IMG/VR virus record: IMGVR_UViG_3300027375_000014
Location: 1-24,034 of that record
Reading direction: 5' to 3' (one strand)
Source: a virus
DNA length: 24,034 bases
Shown here piece by piece: positions 14,119 through 22,548 of this stretch (the stretch's first letter is position 1; each line of letters begins with the position of its first letter). A model generated the notes under the pieces. That model was given only the letters and a program-made list of their open reading frames with translations. It did not search any database and was not told the DNA's origin. The position numbers and the translations under genes were made by a program.

Positions 14119-14375
14119 ATTTTACCTATATCCATTCGTAGCTTGTGTATTTTTTTTAGGTCTTCTTTGCAATCTGTAATATCACCGTACTCAATATGAC
14201 AAGGTCTGCATAATGCCATCAGATTAAATATATTATCCTTTGATGTTCTTCCGCCCATTCCTCTTGCCTCGATGTGATGGATGTCAGTTGCTCTGGCCTC
14301 ACAGACTTCGCAAGGTATAAAGTCGCTTGTGTCATAGCCAAAATAGTCCATATAAATTTTTGTGTGGTTTCTCAT
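14115..14375 (-). CDS. HNH endonuclease
   Basis: The product has 86 residues, one compact HNH nuclease domain. Cys22 and Cys25 (PCEVCEA) with Cys56 and Cys59 (ALCRPCH) form the structural zinc site. DIHHIEARGMGG (31-42) holds the catalytic His, Asn51 is the central Asn, and His60 completes the motif. It is a stand-alone nuclease rather than an intron-bound one. Phage HNH proteins near terminases often help packaging, but here it lies between a Mom-like gene and a gp88 gene. Its ATG overlaps the Mom-like stop (ATGA), and the plus-strand tRNA promoter lies over its first codons. Confidence 0.85.
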   Translation of the reverse strand: MRNHTKIYMDYFGYDTSDFIPCEVCEARATDIHHIEARGMGGRTSKDNIFNLMALCRPCHIEYGDITDCKEDLKKIHKLRMDIGKI

Positions 14376-14391
14376 TTTTTATTTATATTTG
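14360..14391 (+). promoter_or_regulatory. Plus-strand promoter for the tRNA gene
   Basis: TTG at 14360-14362, a 21-base spacer and TATATTTG at 14384-14391 read on the plus strand. The box ends 12 bases before the first base of the tRNA. It lies over the start of the HNH gene and the end of the Mom-like gene on the other strand. It is the only plus-strand promoter recognised. Confidence 0.65.
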
Positions 14392-15025
14392 CATCATTCT
14401 TATGCGGGGTTAGTGTAGTGGTAACACGCTCAGCCTCCAGTTGAGAATCGGCGTTCGATTCGACCACCCCGCTCAACTTTTTTGGGTAAGGTTTGTGTTT
14501 TAACTTATATTCCATAGTTAACTTTTTATCTAATGGATACACATATTTTCTTTTGCCTGCCAACTTTCTTTTAATATTTCCTTTTCCATGCCTTGAATGA
14601 ACCCATTTACCATTACAAAAATACTCATTACCACTTGATTGAGATTCTCCCAAATAAATCCAATTGGTAGCCTGGTATATTGTTCCATAATGGTCTTGTC
14701 CTTTATCTGAGTACGAAATTAACATTTTAACCGATGGACAATCTTTTTTTATTAACCTCATAGAAATTCCCAAGGCCTTTGATGTTATCTTTTGTTTTGA
14801 GTTTAATGCAACCCGTCTTAATTCTAATATCTCACCGTTTCTTAAATTCAATTGTTTACCAATTGTTGGCGTTGCTGGATACCCATATACAATTACACCA
14901 CAAAATTCACCATCATCATTGAATACCGCATAAGACATATTTGCCCCCGTTGGAATCCTTTTTGCATAATGAAAATTCAAACACGCAAATTTAACCGCCT
15001 TGTATGATGCCTTTTCTAATCTCAT
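14372..15025 (-). CDS. Mom-like DNA adenine modification protein
   Basis: The product has 217 residues. SYAVFNDDGEFCGVIVYG (31-48), EILELRRVAL (65-74), SKALGISMRLIKKDCP, MLISYSDKGQDHYGTIYQATN (101-121) and NGKWVHSRHG form the pattern of the Mom family. Its Mu member has a GNAT-like fold and converts adenine in DNA to a carbamoylmethyl form that blocks restriction. The conserved part ends about KPYPKK (178-183). Residues 185-208 are encoded opposite the plus-strand tRNA, and the last residues opposite its promoter, so the tail is probably non-essential. The ATG overlaps the ParB-like stop, and the stop overlaps the HNH start. Confidence 0.8.
   Translation of the reverse strand: MRLEKASYKAVKFACLNFHYAKRIPTGANMSYAVFNDDGEFCGVIVYGYPATPTIGKQLNLRNGEILELRRVALNSKQKITSKALGISMRLIKKDCPSVKMLISYSDKGQDHYGTIYQATNWIYLGESQSSGNEYFCNGKWVHSRHGKGNIKRKLAGKRKYVYPLDKKLTMEYKLKHKPYPKKLSGVVESNADSQLEAERVTTTLTPHKNDANINKK
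14404..14473 (+). tRNA. tRNA-Gly-like gene, probable anticodon TCC, irregular
   Basis: The 70 bases fold as a cloverleaf. The acceptor is GCGGGGT with ACCCCGC. The D arm is GTGT-AGTGGTA-ACAC. The anticodon stem CTCAG/TTGAG encloses the loop CCTCCAG, and the T loop is TTCGATT. G1-C72, C2-G71, a T at position 73 and C35-C36 fit bacterial glycine identity. Irregular points are C instead of U at position 33, two mismatches in the T stem (CGGCG against CGACC) and a short variable loop. A one-base shift of the loop would give CCA (Trp) with a proper U33 but a broken stem. No CCA is encoded. Six T follow shortly after the end. Confidence 0.7.
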
Positions 15026-19519: not shown

Positions 19520-20179
19520 TTATTCCCAGATTATTTCTTTATATTCTTGTTTAGGCTTAATCTCATCGTCCCATCTTTCTTGGTTTAAATAAGTCATTGG
19601 ATGCGGATGAGAATAAGTTTCAAATGGTTTGTATTTTGCAAATGTAAAAATTGTTTCTTTAATTTTTTGTCTTTTCTCTTCGGAAAGATTTTTATATTTA
19701 TCCTTACATTTTTCTTTAGCAACTTTATTTGGATAAGCTTCCCAAAATTCGTCAAAACTAAATATAGTTTCTTTATCTTTATCTTGTTCTTTATCCATAT
19801 CCTTATCTTTATCTTTATCCTTAGCACCTTGTAAGGGGCTTATAAGGGGCTTAATTTTATATTTTTTATGAATTGATATAATTGATAAATGAACTCTATT
19901 TAAAGGATTTAATTCTCCATATTGAAAATCTATAAAATCCTTAATAAACCATTTTTGACCGTCATCAAATACCTGGATATGGTTGCCGAAAATTTTTATT
20001 GCATCATTAAAATCAATTTCACATCCGATTCTAATTTTAGCAACATCCTCATCTACTTGCCATATCCCAGCGTGATCGCAATCATCTAAAATATAAAACC
20101 AAAGGAGCTTGTAAGGTGCTTGTAAGCCTCTTATAAAGGGCTTATTCCATTTTGTTGTGTCAGTGAATCTTTTTGCCAT
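19520..20179 (-). CDS. Replication initiator-like protein
   Basis: The product has 219 residues. The N-terminal domain (1-105) has FTDTTKWNKPFIRGLQ, LLWFYILDDCDHAGIW (25-40) and WFIKDFIDFQYGEL. It resembles the winged-helix start domains of phage replication proteins. A linker of alternating Lys and Asp follows (119-137). The C-terminal part (140-215, with FDEFWEAYPNKVAKEK) resembles the end domain of DnaT/replisome-organiser-type proteins. Two clusters of 11-bp DNA repeats lie in its coding sequence, as expected if it binds an origin in its own gene. The next gene may load the helicase. Confidence 0.7.
   Translation of the reverse strand: MAKRFTDTTKWNKPFIRGLQAPYKLLWFYILDDCDHAGIWQVDEDVAKIRIGCEIDFNDAIKIFGNHIQVFDDGQKWFIKDFIDFQYGELNPLNRVHLSIISIHKKYKIKPLISPLQGAKDKDKDKDMDKEQDKDKETIFSFDEFWEAYPNKVAKEKCKDKYKNLSEEKRQKIKETIFTFAKYKPFETYSHPHPMTYLNQERWDDEIKPKQEYKEIIWE
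19820..19852 (-). repeat. Three 11-bp iterons (origin cluster A)
   Basis: Read on the plus strand, CTTAGCACCTT, GTAAGGGGCTT and ATAAGGGGCTT are contiguous. They lie within the initiator gene where it encodes KPLISPLQGAK. Just to their left, plus-strand repeats of TTTATC-like hexamers (the Lys/Asp linker) form an AT-rich tract that could be an unwinding element. Confidence 0.55.
20100..20143 (-). repeat. Four 11-bp iterons (origin cluster B)
   Basis: Read on the plus strand, CAAAGGAGCTT, GTAAGGTGCTT, GTAAGCCTCTT and ATAAAGGGCTT are contiguous 11-base units. All end in CTT, and most begin GTAAG or ATAAA/G. They encode KPFIRGLQAPYKLLW in the initiator. Cluster A, 248 bases away, has the same period and nearly the same sequence. 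Confidence 0.55.
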
Positions 20180-20181
20180 AA

Positions 20182-20667
20182 TTAAAAACCCTCATTTTCA
20201 TATTTAATATTTGTATCCCAATATTCAAAAGACAATCCATATATATCTACATTATATAAATAAATATTTGCATTTATAAATAAATCATTAATAAAATAAA
20301 TTTGTGGGTTTTTCTTTACCGAATAACCGATTAAAACAATTTCATAAGTAATTTCAAAGTTTTTAAATTTACCTCGTTTATATAAATATCTTTGAAGGCC
20401 TTTTAAATAACTTGATACTTGGCCAAAAGTATTTAAATCTAATTCTCTTTGTTTTAATTCATAAATAGTTATATGTAAAGCTGGAGTAAAATTACCTAAA
20501 TGAGAATAATCGTATGATTTTTCAAATGTAATTAAATCGGCTCTACCATACCTACCTAAATTAACTTGGCTTTTCTTTTTACCATAAATTGGTAACCCTT
20601 TTTGATTTAACACCTCATTTGGTGTTGTTAGAATAATGTTTTCTAATTTTTTTTCAATAATATCCAT
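20182..20667 (-). CDS. PD-(D/E)XK-like nuclease
   Basis: The product has 161 residues from the ATG at 20667. A start six codons earlier would lie inside the T run of the RNA hairpin. Visible features are GRADLITFE (Asp44), ITIYELKQRELDL (Glu70, Lys72), then FGQVSSYLKGLQRYL with Gln83. This is the usual order of a PD-(D/E)XK core (D...E-x-K...Q). It lies directly before the replication initiator, with a two-base gap, and directly behind the structured RNA. It could act on replication intermediates or host DNA. The acidic residue and spacing fit, but the fold is not proven. Confidence 0.6.
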   Translation of the reverse strand: MDIIEKKLENIILTTPNEVLNQKGLPIYGKKKSQVNLGRYGRADLITFEKSYDYSHLGNFTPALHITIYELKQRELDLNTFGQVSSYLKGLQRYLYKRGKFKNFEITYEIVLIGYSVKKNPQIYFINDLFINANIYLYNVDIYGLSFEYWDTNIKYENEGF

Positions 20668-20672
20668 AAAAT

Positions 20673-20784
20673 AAAAAAAGAGCAATAACTTTCAAAGACT
20701 TTCGCGTGGGTTCAAGATTACCCAGTCTTTTACTTGCTATTGCTCTATTTAAAATTAGTTTCATCTTGATTTAGGACGCGAATC
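20673..20784 (-). ncRNA. Structured RNA or attenuator with loop/bulge complementarity
   Basis: On the minus strand AGAGCAATA (20746-20738) pairs with TATTGCTCT (20687-20679), and AAAGACT (20730-20724) with AGTCTTT (20700-20694). GGGT/ACCC (20723-20720, 20711-20708) closes the tip, and a T run follows at 20679-20673. The apical loop (ATCTTGA within 20719-20712) and the seven-base bulge ACGCGAA (20707-20701) are both unpaired. Both are complementary, in the right order, to 5' segments TCAAGAT (20769-20763) and TTCGCGT (20782-20776). The promoter lies seven bases before the proposed start. It may be a stand-alone RNA or a leader controlling the nuclease and initiator genes. The start and end points are estimates. 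Confidence 0.7.
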
Positions 20785-20790
20785 CTTTTG

Positions 20791-20820
20791 CAAATATAAA
20801 GTTTGTTTTGTAATTTCCAA
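20791..20820 (-). promoter_or_regulatory. Bacteroidota-type promoter (TTG-N19-TATATTTG)
   Basis: TTG at 20820-20818, 19 bases, TATATTTG at 20798-20791 on the minus strand: a full match to the Bacteroidota pattern. It is the only promoter here that does not sit right before an ATG gene; it faces the structured RNA. Confidence 0.8.
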
Positions 20821-20828
20821 ATATTAAT

Positions 20829-20850
20829 AGTATTTTCGCAATACTTTTTT
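20829..20850 (+). terminator. Terminator-like hairpin reading rightward
   Basis: AGTATT (20829-20834) pairs with AATACT (20840-20845) around TTCGC, and T follows to 20850 on the plus strand. The stem is A/T-rich and there is no plus-strand gene to its left here. It may instead be a binding site upstream of the RNA promoter. Confidence 0.3.
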
Positions 20851-20864
20851 CATATCTGACGGAA

Positions 20865-21302
20865 TTAGGGGGCTATTGCCCCTTTTTTCTTTAATACAAT
20901 ACTATCTTTATAAGGCACAAATTTAGCAGACATCATTATTTCACCCTCCTCGCTGATCATTCCGTTGTTTGTTAAAGACAATCTATACGACTGTTTTGCA
21001 ACATCTTGGATAGCTTTTAACCTGGCGGATAGTTCAACATACTCTGGGATGTGGTCATACTCATAACGACCACCCCCAGTTCTTACTTCAACCACATATC
21101 CATTGAACTCTTGCTTATTGTACTGATTTGCAGACTTTAGAAAATCTTCGTTTAAATCGCTTGAAATCTTATCGATGGTATCTTGTATCTGTTTAAGTGC
21201 GATAAGCAGTTCTAAAGGCTCTGAATAGCCTAAATTGACATCATTGTGCATCATTCTCAATTCAGACAATACACTTATAGGGGATATTTTCTTTTTTAGC
21301 AT
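20865..21302 (-). CDS. Conserved phage protein near SSB, function unknown
   Basis: The product has 145 residues. The central VRTGGGRYEYDHIPEYVEL (about 73-91), then ARLKAIQDVAKQSYRLSL and the end VPYKDSIVLKKKG, are distinctive, and I recall similar proteins beside recombination and SSB genes in Bacteroidota phages. The first half is helical. It lies two bases after the SSB-like gene in one unit. No catalytic motif is visible. The last codons and stop form a G/C hairpin. Confidence 0.65.
   Translation of the reverse strand: MLKKKISPISVLSELRMMHNDVNLGYSEPLELLIALKQIQDTIDKISSDLNEDFLKSANQYNKQEFNGYVVEVRTGGGRYEYDHIPEYVELSARLKAIQDVAKQSYRLSLTNNGMISEEGEIMMSAKFVPYKDSIVLKKKGAIAP
20868..20888 (+). terminator. 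Terminator-like hairpin reading rightward
   Basis: GGGGC (20869-20873) pairs with GCCCC (20878-20882) around TATT, and six T follow (20883-20888) on the plus strand. On the minus strand it covers the stop codon of the 145-residue gene, with no T run, so it would work mainly against plus-strand transcripts. Confidence 0.45.
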
Positions 21303-22240: not shown

Positions 22241-22251
22241 ATTTGACATTG

Positions 22252-22282
22252 CGAATTTATATTTTATTTTGTAATTTTCCAA
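22252..22282 (-). promoter_or_regulatory. Probable promoter (TTG-N20-TAAATTCG)
   Basis: TTG at 22282-22280 and TAAATTCG at 22259-22252 on the minus strand, spacer 20. One base differs from TAnnTTTG. It ends 11 bases before the chosen ATG and lies over the end of the upstream gene, so it may add an internal start to the operon. Confidence 0.5.
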
Positions 22283-22548
22283 AACATACTTGGCGGATAG
22301 TTCATATTTTTCTTAATGGTTTTGTATTGGCCAAGGTATCCCCAAACCAATCCACCGTATTGCTTTTGTGAATAGATGATTGGGATGCCATTACGCATTC
22401 GCATCTCCTCAAACTTGTTGACGAATCGAGGACCATCACCAAACTCACTCCACCAAAATAAATAGTCGCCCTTTTTTAATTTCATAAACTCAATAACATC
22501 ATCCTCGTTGTATTGCATTACTGTCGGCAAGTGTTCTGTGATTACCAT
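22264..22548 (-). CDS. Hypothetical protein, 94 residues
   Basis: The product is rich in aromatic residues, with KKGDYLFWWSEFGDGPRF (about 25-42) and QYGGLVWGYLGQYKTI. It reads as a compact beta-rich small domain. No catalytic motif was recognised. It overlaps the gene before it by seven bases. A small regulator or protein-binding domain would be a guess. Confidence 0.6.
   Translation of the reverse strand: MVITEHLPTVMQYNEDDVIEFMKLKKGDYLFWWSEFGDGPRFVNKFEEMRMRNGIPIIYSQKQYGGLVWGYLGQYKTIKKNMNYPPSMFWKITK

Follow-up and report, generated by a model that had tools for sequence, protein, structure and literature searches.

Control of replication initiators by RNA is textbook knowledge for plasmids and is also known in phage P4. 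In the rep leaders of ColIb-P9 (repYZ), IncB and IncL/M plasmids, the loop of a 5' hairpin pairs with a downstream word, and the stop codon of a leader ORF overlaps the start of the initiator. Competition between the ColIb-P9 pseudoknot and an antisense RNA, as cited in PMC10724649, provides a precedent for switching by rival pairings. The rep mRNA leader of pT181 carries an intrinsic terminator and kissing-competent hairpin loops (PMC4878617). In P4, transcription of the replication operon ends prematurely when the CI RNA pairs with seqA and seqC, according to the summary in PMC4825925. Two further phage RNAs bear on the present case: IsrK of the Gifsy-1 prophage, where one promoter yields a terminated short RNA and a read-through mRNA and translation of the gene that follows is coupled to that of a short ORF (PMC4825925), and the c4 RNA of P1 and P7, whose loop words are complementary to target words and which is involved in heteroimmunity (PMC12197685).

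The window analysed here (the whole stretch of 24,034 nucleotides of IMG/VR virus record IMGVR_UViG_3300027375_000014) carries on its minus strand a promoter followed by ~110 nt that end in a strong hairpin with a T-run, immediately ahead of an ATG at 20667. Sequence comparison suggests that in many Bacteroidota viruses the replication operon begins with a short RNA of this kind, in which the loop of the terminator hairpin is complementary to the RNA's own 5' end. The features of the locus, with the basis for each and with L003 and L107 denoting related contigs, are:

20791..20821, minus strand: Bacteroidota-type promoter, from sequence (-33 element TTTGG at 20821-20817; -7 motif TATATTTG at 20798-20791)
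20668..20790, minus strand: class A leader RNA element, from the end of the -7 motif to the last base before the ATG; five-relative alignment and CM hits
20776..20782, minus strand: 5' segment A, TTCGCGT, partner of the bulge; double compensatory changes, two of them in L003 and a further one in L107
20763..20769, minus strand: 5' segment B, TCAAGAT, partner of the apical loop; compensatory changes in L003 and L107; overlaps the uORF start codon (20764-20762)
20736..20746, minus strand: 5' arm of stem P1, AGAGCAATAGC; fold and one double compensatory change
20679..20689, minus strand: 3' arm of P1, GTTATTGCTCT; fold and covariation
20724..20730, minus strand: 5' arm of stem P2, AAAGACT; two double compensatory changes
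20694..20700, minus strand: 3' arm of P2, AGTCTTT; fold and covariation
20720..20723, minus strand: 5' arm of stem P3, GGGT, with its partner ACCC at 20711-20708; fold
20712..20719, minus strand: apical loop AATCTTGA, 8 nt, of which ATCTTGA pairs with segment B; covariation
20701..20707, minus strand: bulge ACGCGAA, 7 nt, pairing with segment A; covariation
20668..20679, minus strand: T-rich tail TTTTTTTATTTT of the presumed intrinsic terminator, from sequence; seven-T run at 20679-20673
20654..20764, minus strand: short upstream ORF (uORF) of 36 codons that spans the hairpin and has its stop codon beginning 11 nt beyond the next ATG
20182..20667, minus strand: first downstream gene, 161 aa; other genes stand in its place in relatives
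19520..20179, minus strand: replication-initiation protein, phrog_270, from a phrog match

The minus-strand promoter, hairpin, T-run and complementarity of loop and bulge to the 5' segments are all present as the original prediction had described them, except that the promoter, taken there as a full match, is better described as Bacteroidota-type than as sigma-70. The hairpin is three-part, with an 8-base loop and a 7-base bulge, and the next gene's ATG lies 12 bases beyond its stem; a strong hairpin and a T-rich tail between promoter and start codon give the leader the anatomy of an attenuator. The leader RNA folds with a minimum free energy of -30.9 kcal/mol (z = -3.65), a value equalled by none of 200 shuffles. 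P3 is invariant among relatives, and its support comes from folding alone, with no covariation. No plus-strand promoter consensus occurs in the window leader. Elsewhere in the window, a stretch with ~82% identity to the leader promoter lies at 22249-22283 on the minus strand without a leader hairpin behind it, and a terminator-like plus-strand hairpin (20867-20884) sits just upstream of the leader promoter, overlapping the end of the upstream CDS, though the genes are on the minus strand.

A homologous element occurs in seven further contigs (L003, L107, L084, L085, L086, L090 and L096), with L085 and L086 identical to L084. L003 differs from the window at 11 of 112 bases; 8 of these fall in the four pairing words, each of them compensated by a change in its partner: TTCGCGT/ACGCGAA has become TTCGCAC/GTGCGAA, and TCAAGAT/ATCTTGA has become TCAGTAT/ATACTGA. 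L107 carries a variant of the segment A-bulge pair (TTGGCGT/ACGCCAA). The counterparts of segment B are other yet complementary words in L084 and L096: GTAGTTA/TAACTAC, shared by L090 and shifted in register by one position relative to the window, in the former, and GCAGT/ACTGC (five contiguous pairs), with two further pairs across one mismatch, in the latter. Both sides have changed in 7 of 34 pairs of a five-sequence alignment, and the covariation score, in which the register shift of L084 and L090 counts against the loop helix, was reached by none of 500 shuffles. In a matrix of all word combinations, full pairing is absent between words of unlike type. The original prediction held that chance was unlikely at both unpaired places, and on this evidence the loop-5' and bulge-5' pairings are real, far beyond chance.

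The pairing words also outpace the rest of the element (8 of 30 sites versus 3 of 82 between the window and L003, P = 0.001; window versus L107, P = 0.005). The promoter is identical in L003, L084, L090, L104 and L107; in L096 the -7 motif is kept and the sequence upstream of it is unrelated, so that promoter core and leader behave as a unit. Quick, coordinated word change in near-identical phages is expected if recognition between molecules matters. It is not predicted by a static tertiary fold, in which the pairing would compact a small stable RNA or protect its 5' end and the gene start behind the T-run would be incidental. Such a fold agrees with the words being mostly unique in the locus and pairing within the leader only; it leaves unexplained both the faster change of the paired words and the recurrence of the element, with its T-run, in front of replication genes, and we regard it as improbable.

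The element always lies directly before an ATG, and the adjoining gene varies among relatives: nuclease-like in the window and L003, a short ORF in L090, Mom-like in L096, and the initiator itself in L084 and L107. Whatever the first gene, the initiator follows the leader in every relative, and the proposed position of a structured RNA upstream of nuclease and initiator genes is upheld, with the qualification that other genes come first in relatives. The 161-aa protein (GRADLI...ELKQ) encoded at 20182-20667 resembles, by eye, a PD-(D/E)XK nuclease; it has no significant Pfam or PHROG match. The Mom-like DNA-modification gene right behind the L096 leader was likewise assigned by eye from its translation, and a Pfam Mom homologue is also found elsewhere in the window (14372-15025). 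The initiators of closely related phages have a common C-terminal part (FSFESFWNLYP...; L104 3612-, L105 3633-, L107 2509-, L109 3613-), and several of them have unrelated N-terminal domains, a modular exchange of the presumed origin-binding part beside the exchanged leader.

Leaders of unrelated sequence, at this locus as well as in further phages, follow the same design: a terminator-like hairpin has a loop that is complementary, mostly over 6-9 nt, to a 5' segment or to the loop of a 5' hairpin. L104 shares its upstream gene and promoter with the window and has an unrelated leader, in which CATT[GGTCAAG]AATG faces the loop CTTGACC (7/7); judged by its sequence, this is a cassette replacement at the same site. 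Further metagenomic examples are L005, whose 5' CTACCACA matches the loop TGTGGTAG (8/8); L007, L008, L014 and L016, with a 5' hairpin loop GGTGAAG and CTTCACC (7); L015, a homologue of the L007 group in which the inner half of the terminator is replaced (GTAGAAG with CTTCTAC, 7); L006 (CGGCAA with TTGCCG, 6); L056 (ATGACT with AGTCAT, 6); and, more weakly, L018 (CTGCA with TGCAG). Among named phages, matches of 7-9 bases occur in Tenacibaculum phage JQ (GCATCCTAC with GTAGGATGC), F. columnare phage FCV-1 and dozens of isolates (GTAGAGAG with CTCTCTAC; the word in FCOV-S1 is GTAGAGA), and Flavobacterium phages snusmum9-1 (GTGGAACG with CGTTCCAC), morran9-1 (GTGAGAAG with CTTCTCAC) and FCL-2 (CATCCAC with GTGGATG). 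In Parabacteroides phage PD482P1, chosen afterwards by its initiator as a test case, GTTCG[AACTACCAC]CGAAC is complementary to the terminator loop GGTGGTAG at 8/8 positions.

These leaders share a Bacteroidota-type -7 motif, a 5' word or hairpin loop, a terminator-like hairpin with a complementary loop, a T-tail (5-7 T in the 8 bases past the stem in all leaders examined) and a place at the head of a replication operon with a replication-initiation gene behind, and we propose them as one leader class. In every class tested, the 5' word lies at +8 to +21 after the -7 motif and the loop or bulge word at +64 to +83. Cognate matches of at least 7 bases were present in 10 of 13 leaders, as against 2 of 146 non-cognate pairings between classes. 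Across four homologous leaders of Flavobacterium phages, both partners differ in 5 of the 8 kissing pairs, and pairing holds in 31 of 32 cells. Because some metagenomic examples were first picked by eye, the case draws its strength from covariation, from the comparison of cognate with non-cognate matches and from the named phages.

Automatic scans give a measure of the background. Among 571 terminator-like hairpins, 18 had matches of at least 7 bases, compared with ~9 in permuted controls, which means that most single matches are due to chance and that real ones are identified only by position, covariation and T-run; a stricter scan returned 17 reverse-complement matches, versus 6 and 6 in two controls. 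Five candidates from the first descriptor scan (L028, L037, L045, L063 and L077), in which the stretch overlaps coding sequence, were judged chance matches, as were L087 and L088, found with the pattern ATTCGCGTCCTAA..ATG. The pattern GACTGGGT..ACCC..GCGAAAGTC had no match in the genomes of 84,980 bacterial and archaeal species, and a nucleotide search of the window element against named phages returned chance matches only. A genome scan with the initiator alignment recovered 12 distant relatives, among which automatic scans recognised no such leader. Bacteroides phage BKO1-3 and Vibrio phage 1.036.O have no such leader directly upstream of the related gene, and in Riemerella phages this gene lies inside an operon with no comparable gap upstream; the leader is thus not a fixed companion of the initiator.

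Rfam 15 covariance models gave no match at gathering score in the window or at 15 loci carrying other leader classes, and a permissive search of 20500-20960 produced sub-threshold matches only, in keeping with the first impression that no known RNA class was recognisable. This library presumably includes C4 antisense RNA and isrK. In open-licence PubMed Central papers we found no description of the terminator-loop/5'-end design, and none of RNA control of initiators in tailed phages of Bacteroidota.

In classes A, C, D and E, an ORF with 32-36 codons begins at the 5' word or beyond it and continues without a stop through the hairpin, ending from -2 to +26 relative to the next start; among class A relatives the frame is open in L003, L107, L084 and L096. 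In five leaders (L003, L096, L005, L006 and L018) the stop and the following start codon overlap, as TAATG or ATGA; in other uORF leaders they lie near each other. For a single leader, an open frame has a probability of 5-19% by chance; taken together, the open frames are suggestive. No equivalent frame was seen in classes B, G, H and I, so leader translation cannot be a universal switch and would be at most an optional layer. That the frame at 20764-20654 encodes a real short protein, with the base pairing a by-product, fits the open frame found throughout class A and in classes C, D and E, and is nonetheless very hard to credit: between the window and L084 the amino acids are not conserved, most codon differences altering the residue while the pairs stay, and in the classes that lack the frame the kissing pairs covary too. 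Homologues keeping this frame while losing the base pairs had been named as evidence against a structured RNA; the relatives instead keep the pairs while peptide residues change, and the frame also stays open.

We lean somewhat towards the view that this is the 5' leader of a replication operon working as an attenuator, with the loop-5' pairing as an off-lock. Transcription would start just before the 5' segments, and most transcripts would stop at the hairpin and T-run, giving an RNA of ~105-120 nt, with the initiator expressed from read-through transcripts only. Contact of the 5' segments (in other phages, the 5' hairpin loop) with the terminator hairpin's loop and bulge would favour the off state by locking that hairpin; in the uORF classes, the pairing would also cover or crowd the start codon and keep a ribosome from entering and opening the hairpin. 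The off-lock is favoured by analogy with the pairing of P4 CI with seqA and seqC. Against it, termination is predicted from sequence, the uORF is confined to some classes, and termination should depend mainly on the outer stem by the T-run, which the pairing leaves untouched, so that pairing might instead delay folding and raise read-through. The opposite sign, in which cis pairing raises read-through and sister transcripts compete, fits the anatomy about as well.

The original prediction had envisaged a switch between the terminator hairpin and an alternative fold. This part gains no support here: in other classes the 5' partner is often a hairpin loop, leaving the terminator stem fully formable, and there is no strand complementary to the terminator's outer 5' arm, except perhaps in FCL-2. 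The loop-5' interaction looks like a kissing or pseudoknot contact made on top of the hairpin, not like a fold that competes with it, and with no antiterminator strand, that one phage perhaps excepted, control would have to lie with the loop-5' contact, leader translation or some protein. A related proposal is that cis pairing delays or disturbs the terminator (on) and that ready-made leader RNA of the same phage blocks this pairing (off), an analogue of the ColIb-P9 contest between pseudoknot and antisense RNA with a sense competitor. In all classes the 5' partner is transcribed first, with its complementary word ~50-75 nt later, and the words evolve fast and specifically, as this proposal would have it; the terminator stem, however, far exceeds a 7-9 bp loop helix in strength, and the two can coexist. 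We consider this reading doubtful.

With both halves present on every transcript, the words could also pair from one molecule to another, and under the off-lock accumulated leader RNA of the same phage could repress expression of the replication genes, whereas that of a relative could not. Taken further, the RNA might act mainly in trans as a self-specific immunity or incompatibility RNA, like P4 CI, the terminated leader of a resident phage silencing the replication genes of an incoming sister and the words diversifying to escape cross-repression. We think this unlikely as the main role, although near-identical phages carry different word combinations that do not match in full when unlike, whole cassettes are exchanged at one site, initiator N-terminal domains are exchanged as well, and P4 offers a precedent (summarised in PMC4825925). 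The partner in cis always has the higher local concentration, so that cis pairing should usually outcompete trans pairing, and a downstream second target word like seqC of P4 is missing. FCV-1-type phages, moreover, are lytic, which makes lysogenic immunity an improbable common purpose.

Returning to the attenuator with its off-lock, a pairing that is kept while its sequence varies from virus to virus points to a self-recognising control of viral replication. As a tentative extension, there may be a widespread, so far undescribed class of phage RNA in which the leader of each virus's replication genes recognises itself by a fast-changing loop/5'-end code; sister copies of a virus would then detect each other's transcripts and curb replication, or shut out close relatives, with no need for a protein repressor or antisense gene. 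Tailed Bacteroidota phages are common in gut and aquatic viromes, and cultured ones hold natural word variants (F. columnare phages FCV-1 and FCL-2, Flavobacterium LMO9 phages and Parabacteroides phages), so that sign, cis or trans action and superinfection effects are directly testable. The leader anatomy may also serve as a signature for replication promoters in unannotated phage genomes, and the leaders are natural candidates for a set of orthogonal attenuators.

That RNA leaders regulate replication initiators is known; the terminator-loop/5'-end design, in many unrelated versions, is new to Rfam and to the open-licence papers searched. Like IsrK, the leader described here combines a presumed short terminated RNA and a read-through mRNA from one promoter, but IsrK controls the anrP/AntQ module rather than a replication initiator. 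Like the c4 RNA of P1 and P7, it is a phage RNA with loop words complementary to target words, but c4 targets translation of an antirepressor mRNA and not a replication leader; neither family has an Rfam match here. Several classes resemble the ColIb-P9, IncB and IncL/M leaders in heading an initiator, in the downstream pairing of a 5' loop and, in part of the uORF leaders, in a stop codon that overlaps the next start, whereas the plasmids use an antisense RNA and translational activation and the partner here is the terminator loop. An opposite-strand -7 consensus is absent from 12 of 15 leaders and present in L007, L015 and L096. With pT181 the leader shares a terminator, presumed here, and kissing-competent loops before a rep gene; pT181 differs in its antisense RNA and in an antiterminator that sequesters the terminator's 5' arm, an arrangement rejected here: in 13 of 15 leaders the longest complement measures 3-5 nt, and FCL-2 and L056 reach 7 and 6 nt. 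A second target as in P4 was likewise rejected, each 5' word occurring once in the 2.4-7 kb scanned per locus, bar one distant copy in L015. P4 CI/seqA shares with the present system a phage replication-operon leader, premature termination (presumed here) and an RNA complementary to the transcript's 5' word (PMC4825925); in contrast to CI, a processed RNA that also has the downstream target seqC, the complementary loop here belongs to the presumed terminator itself.
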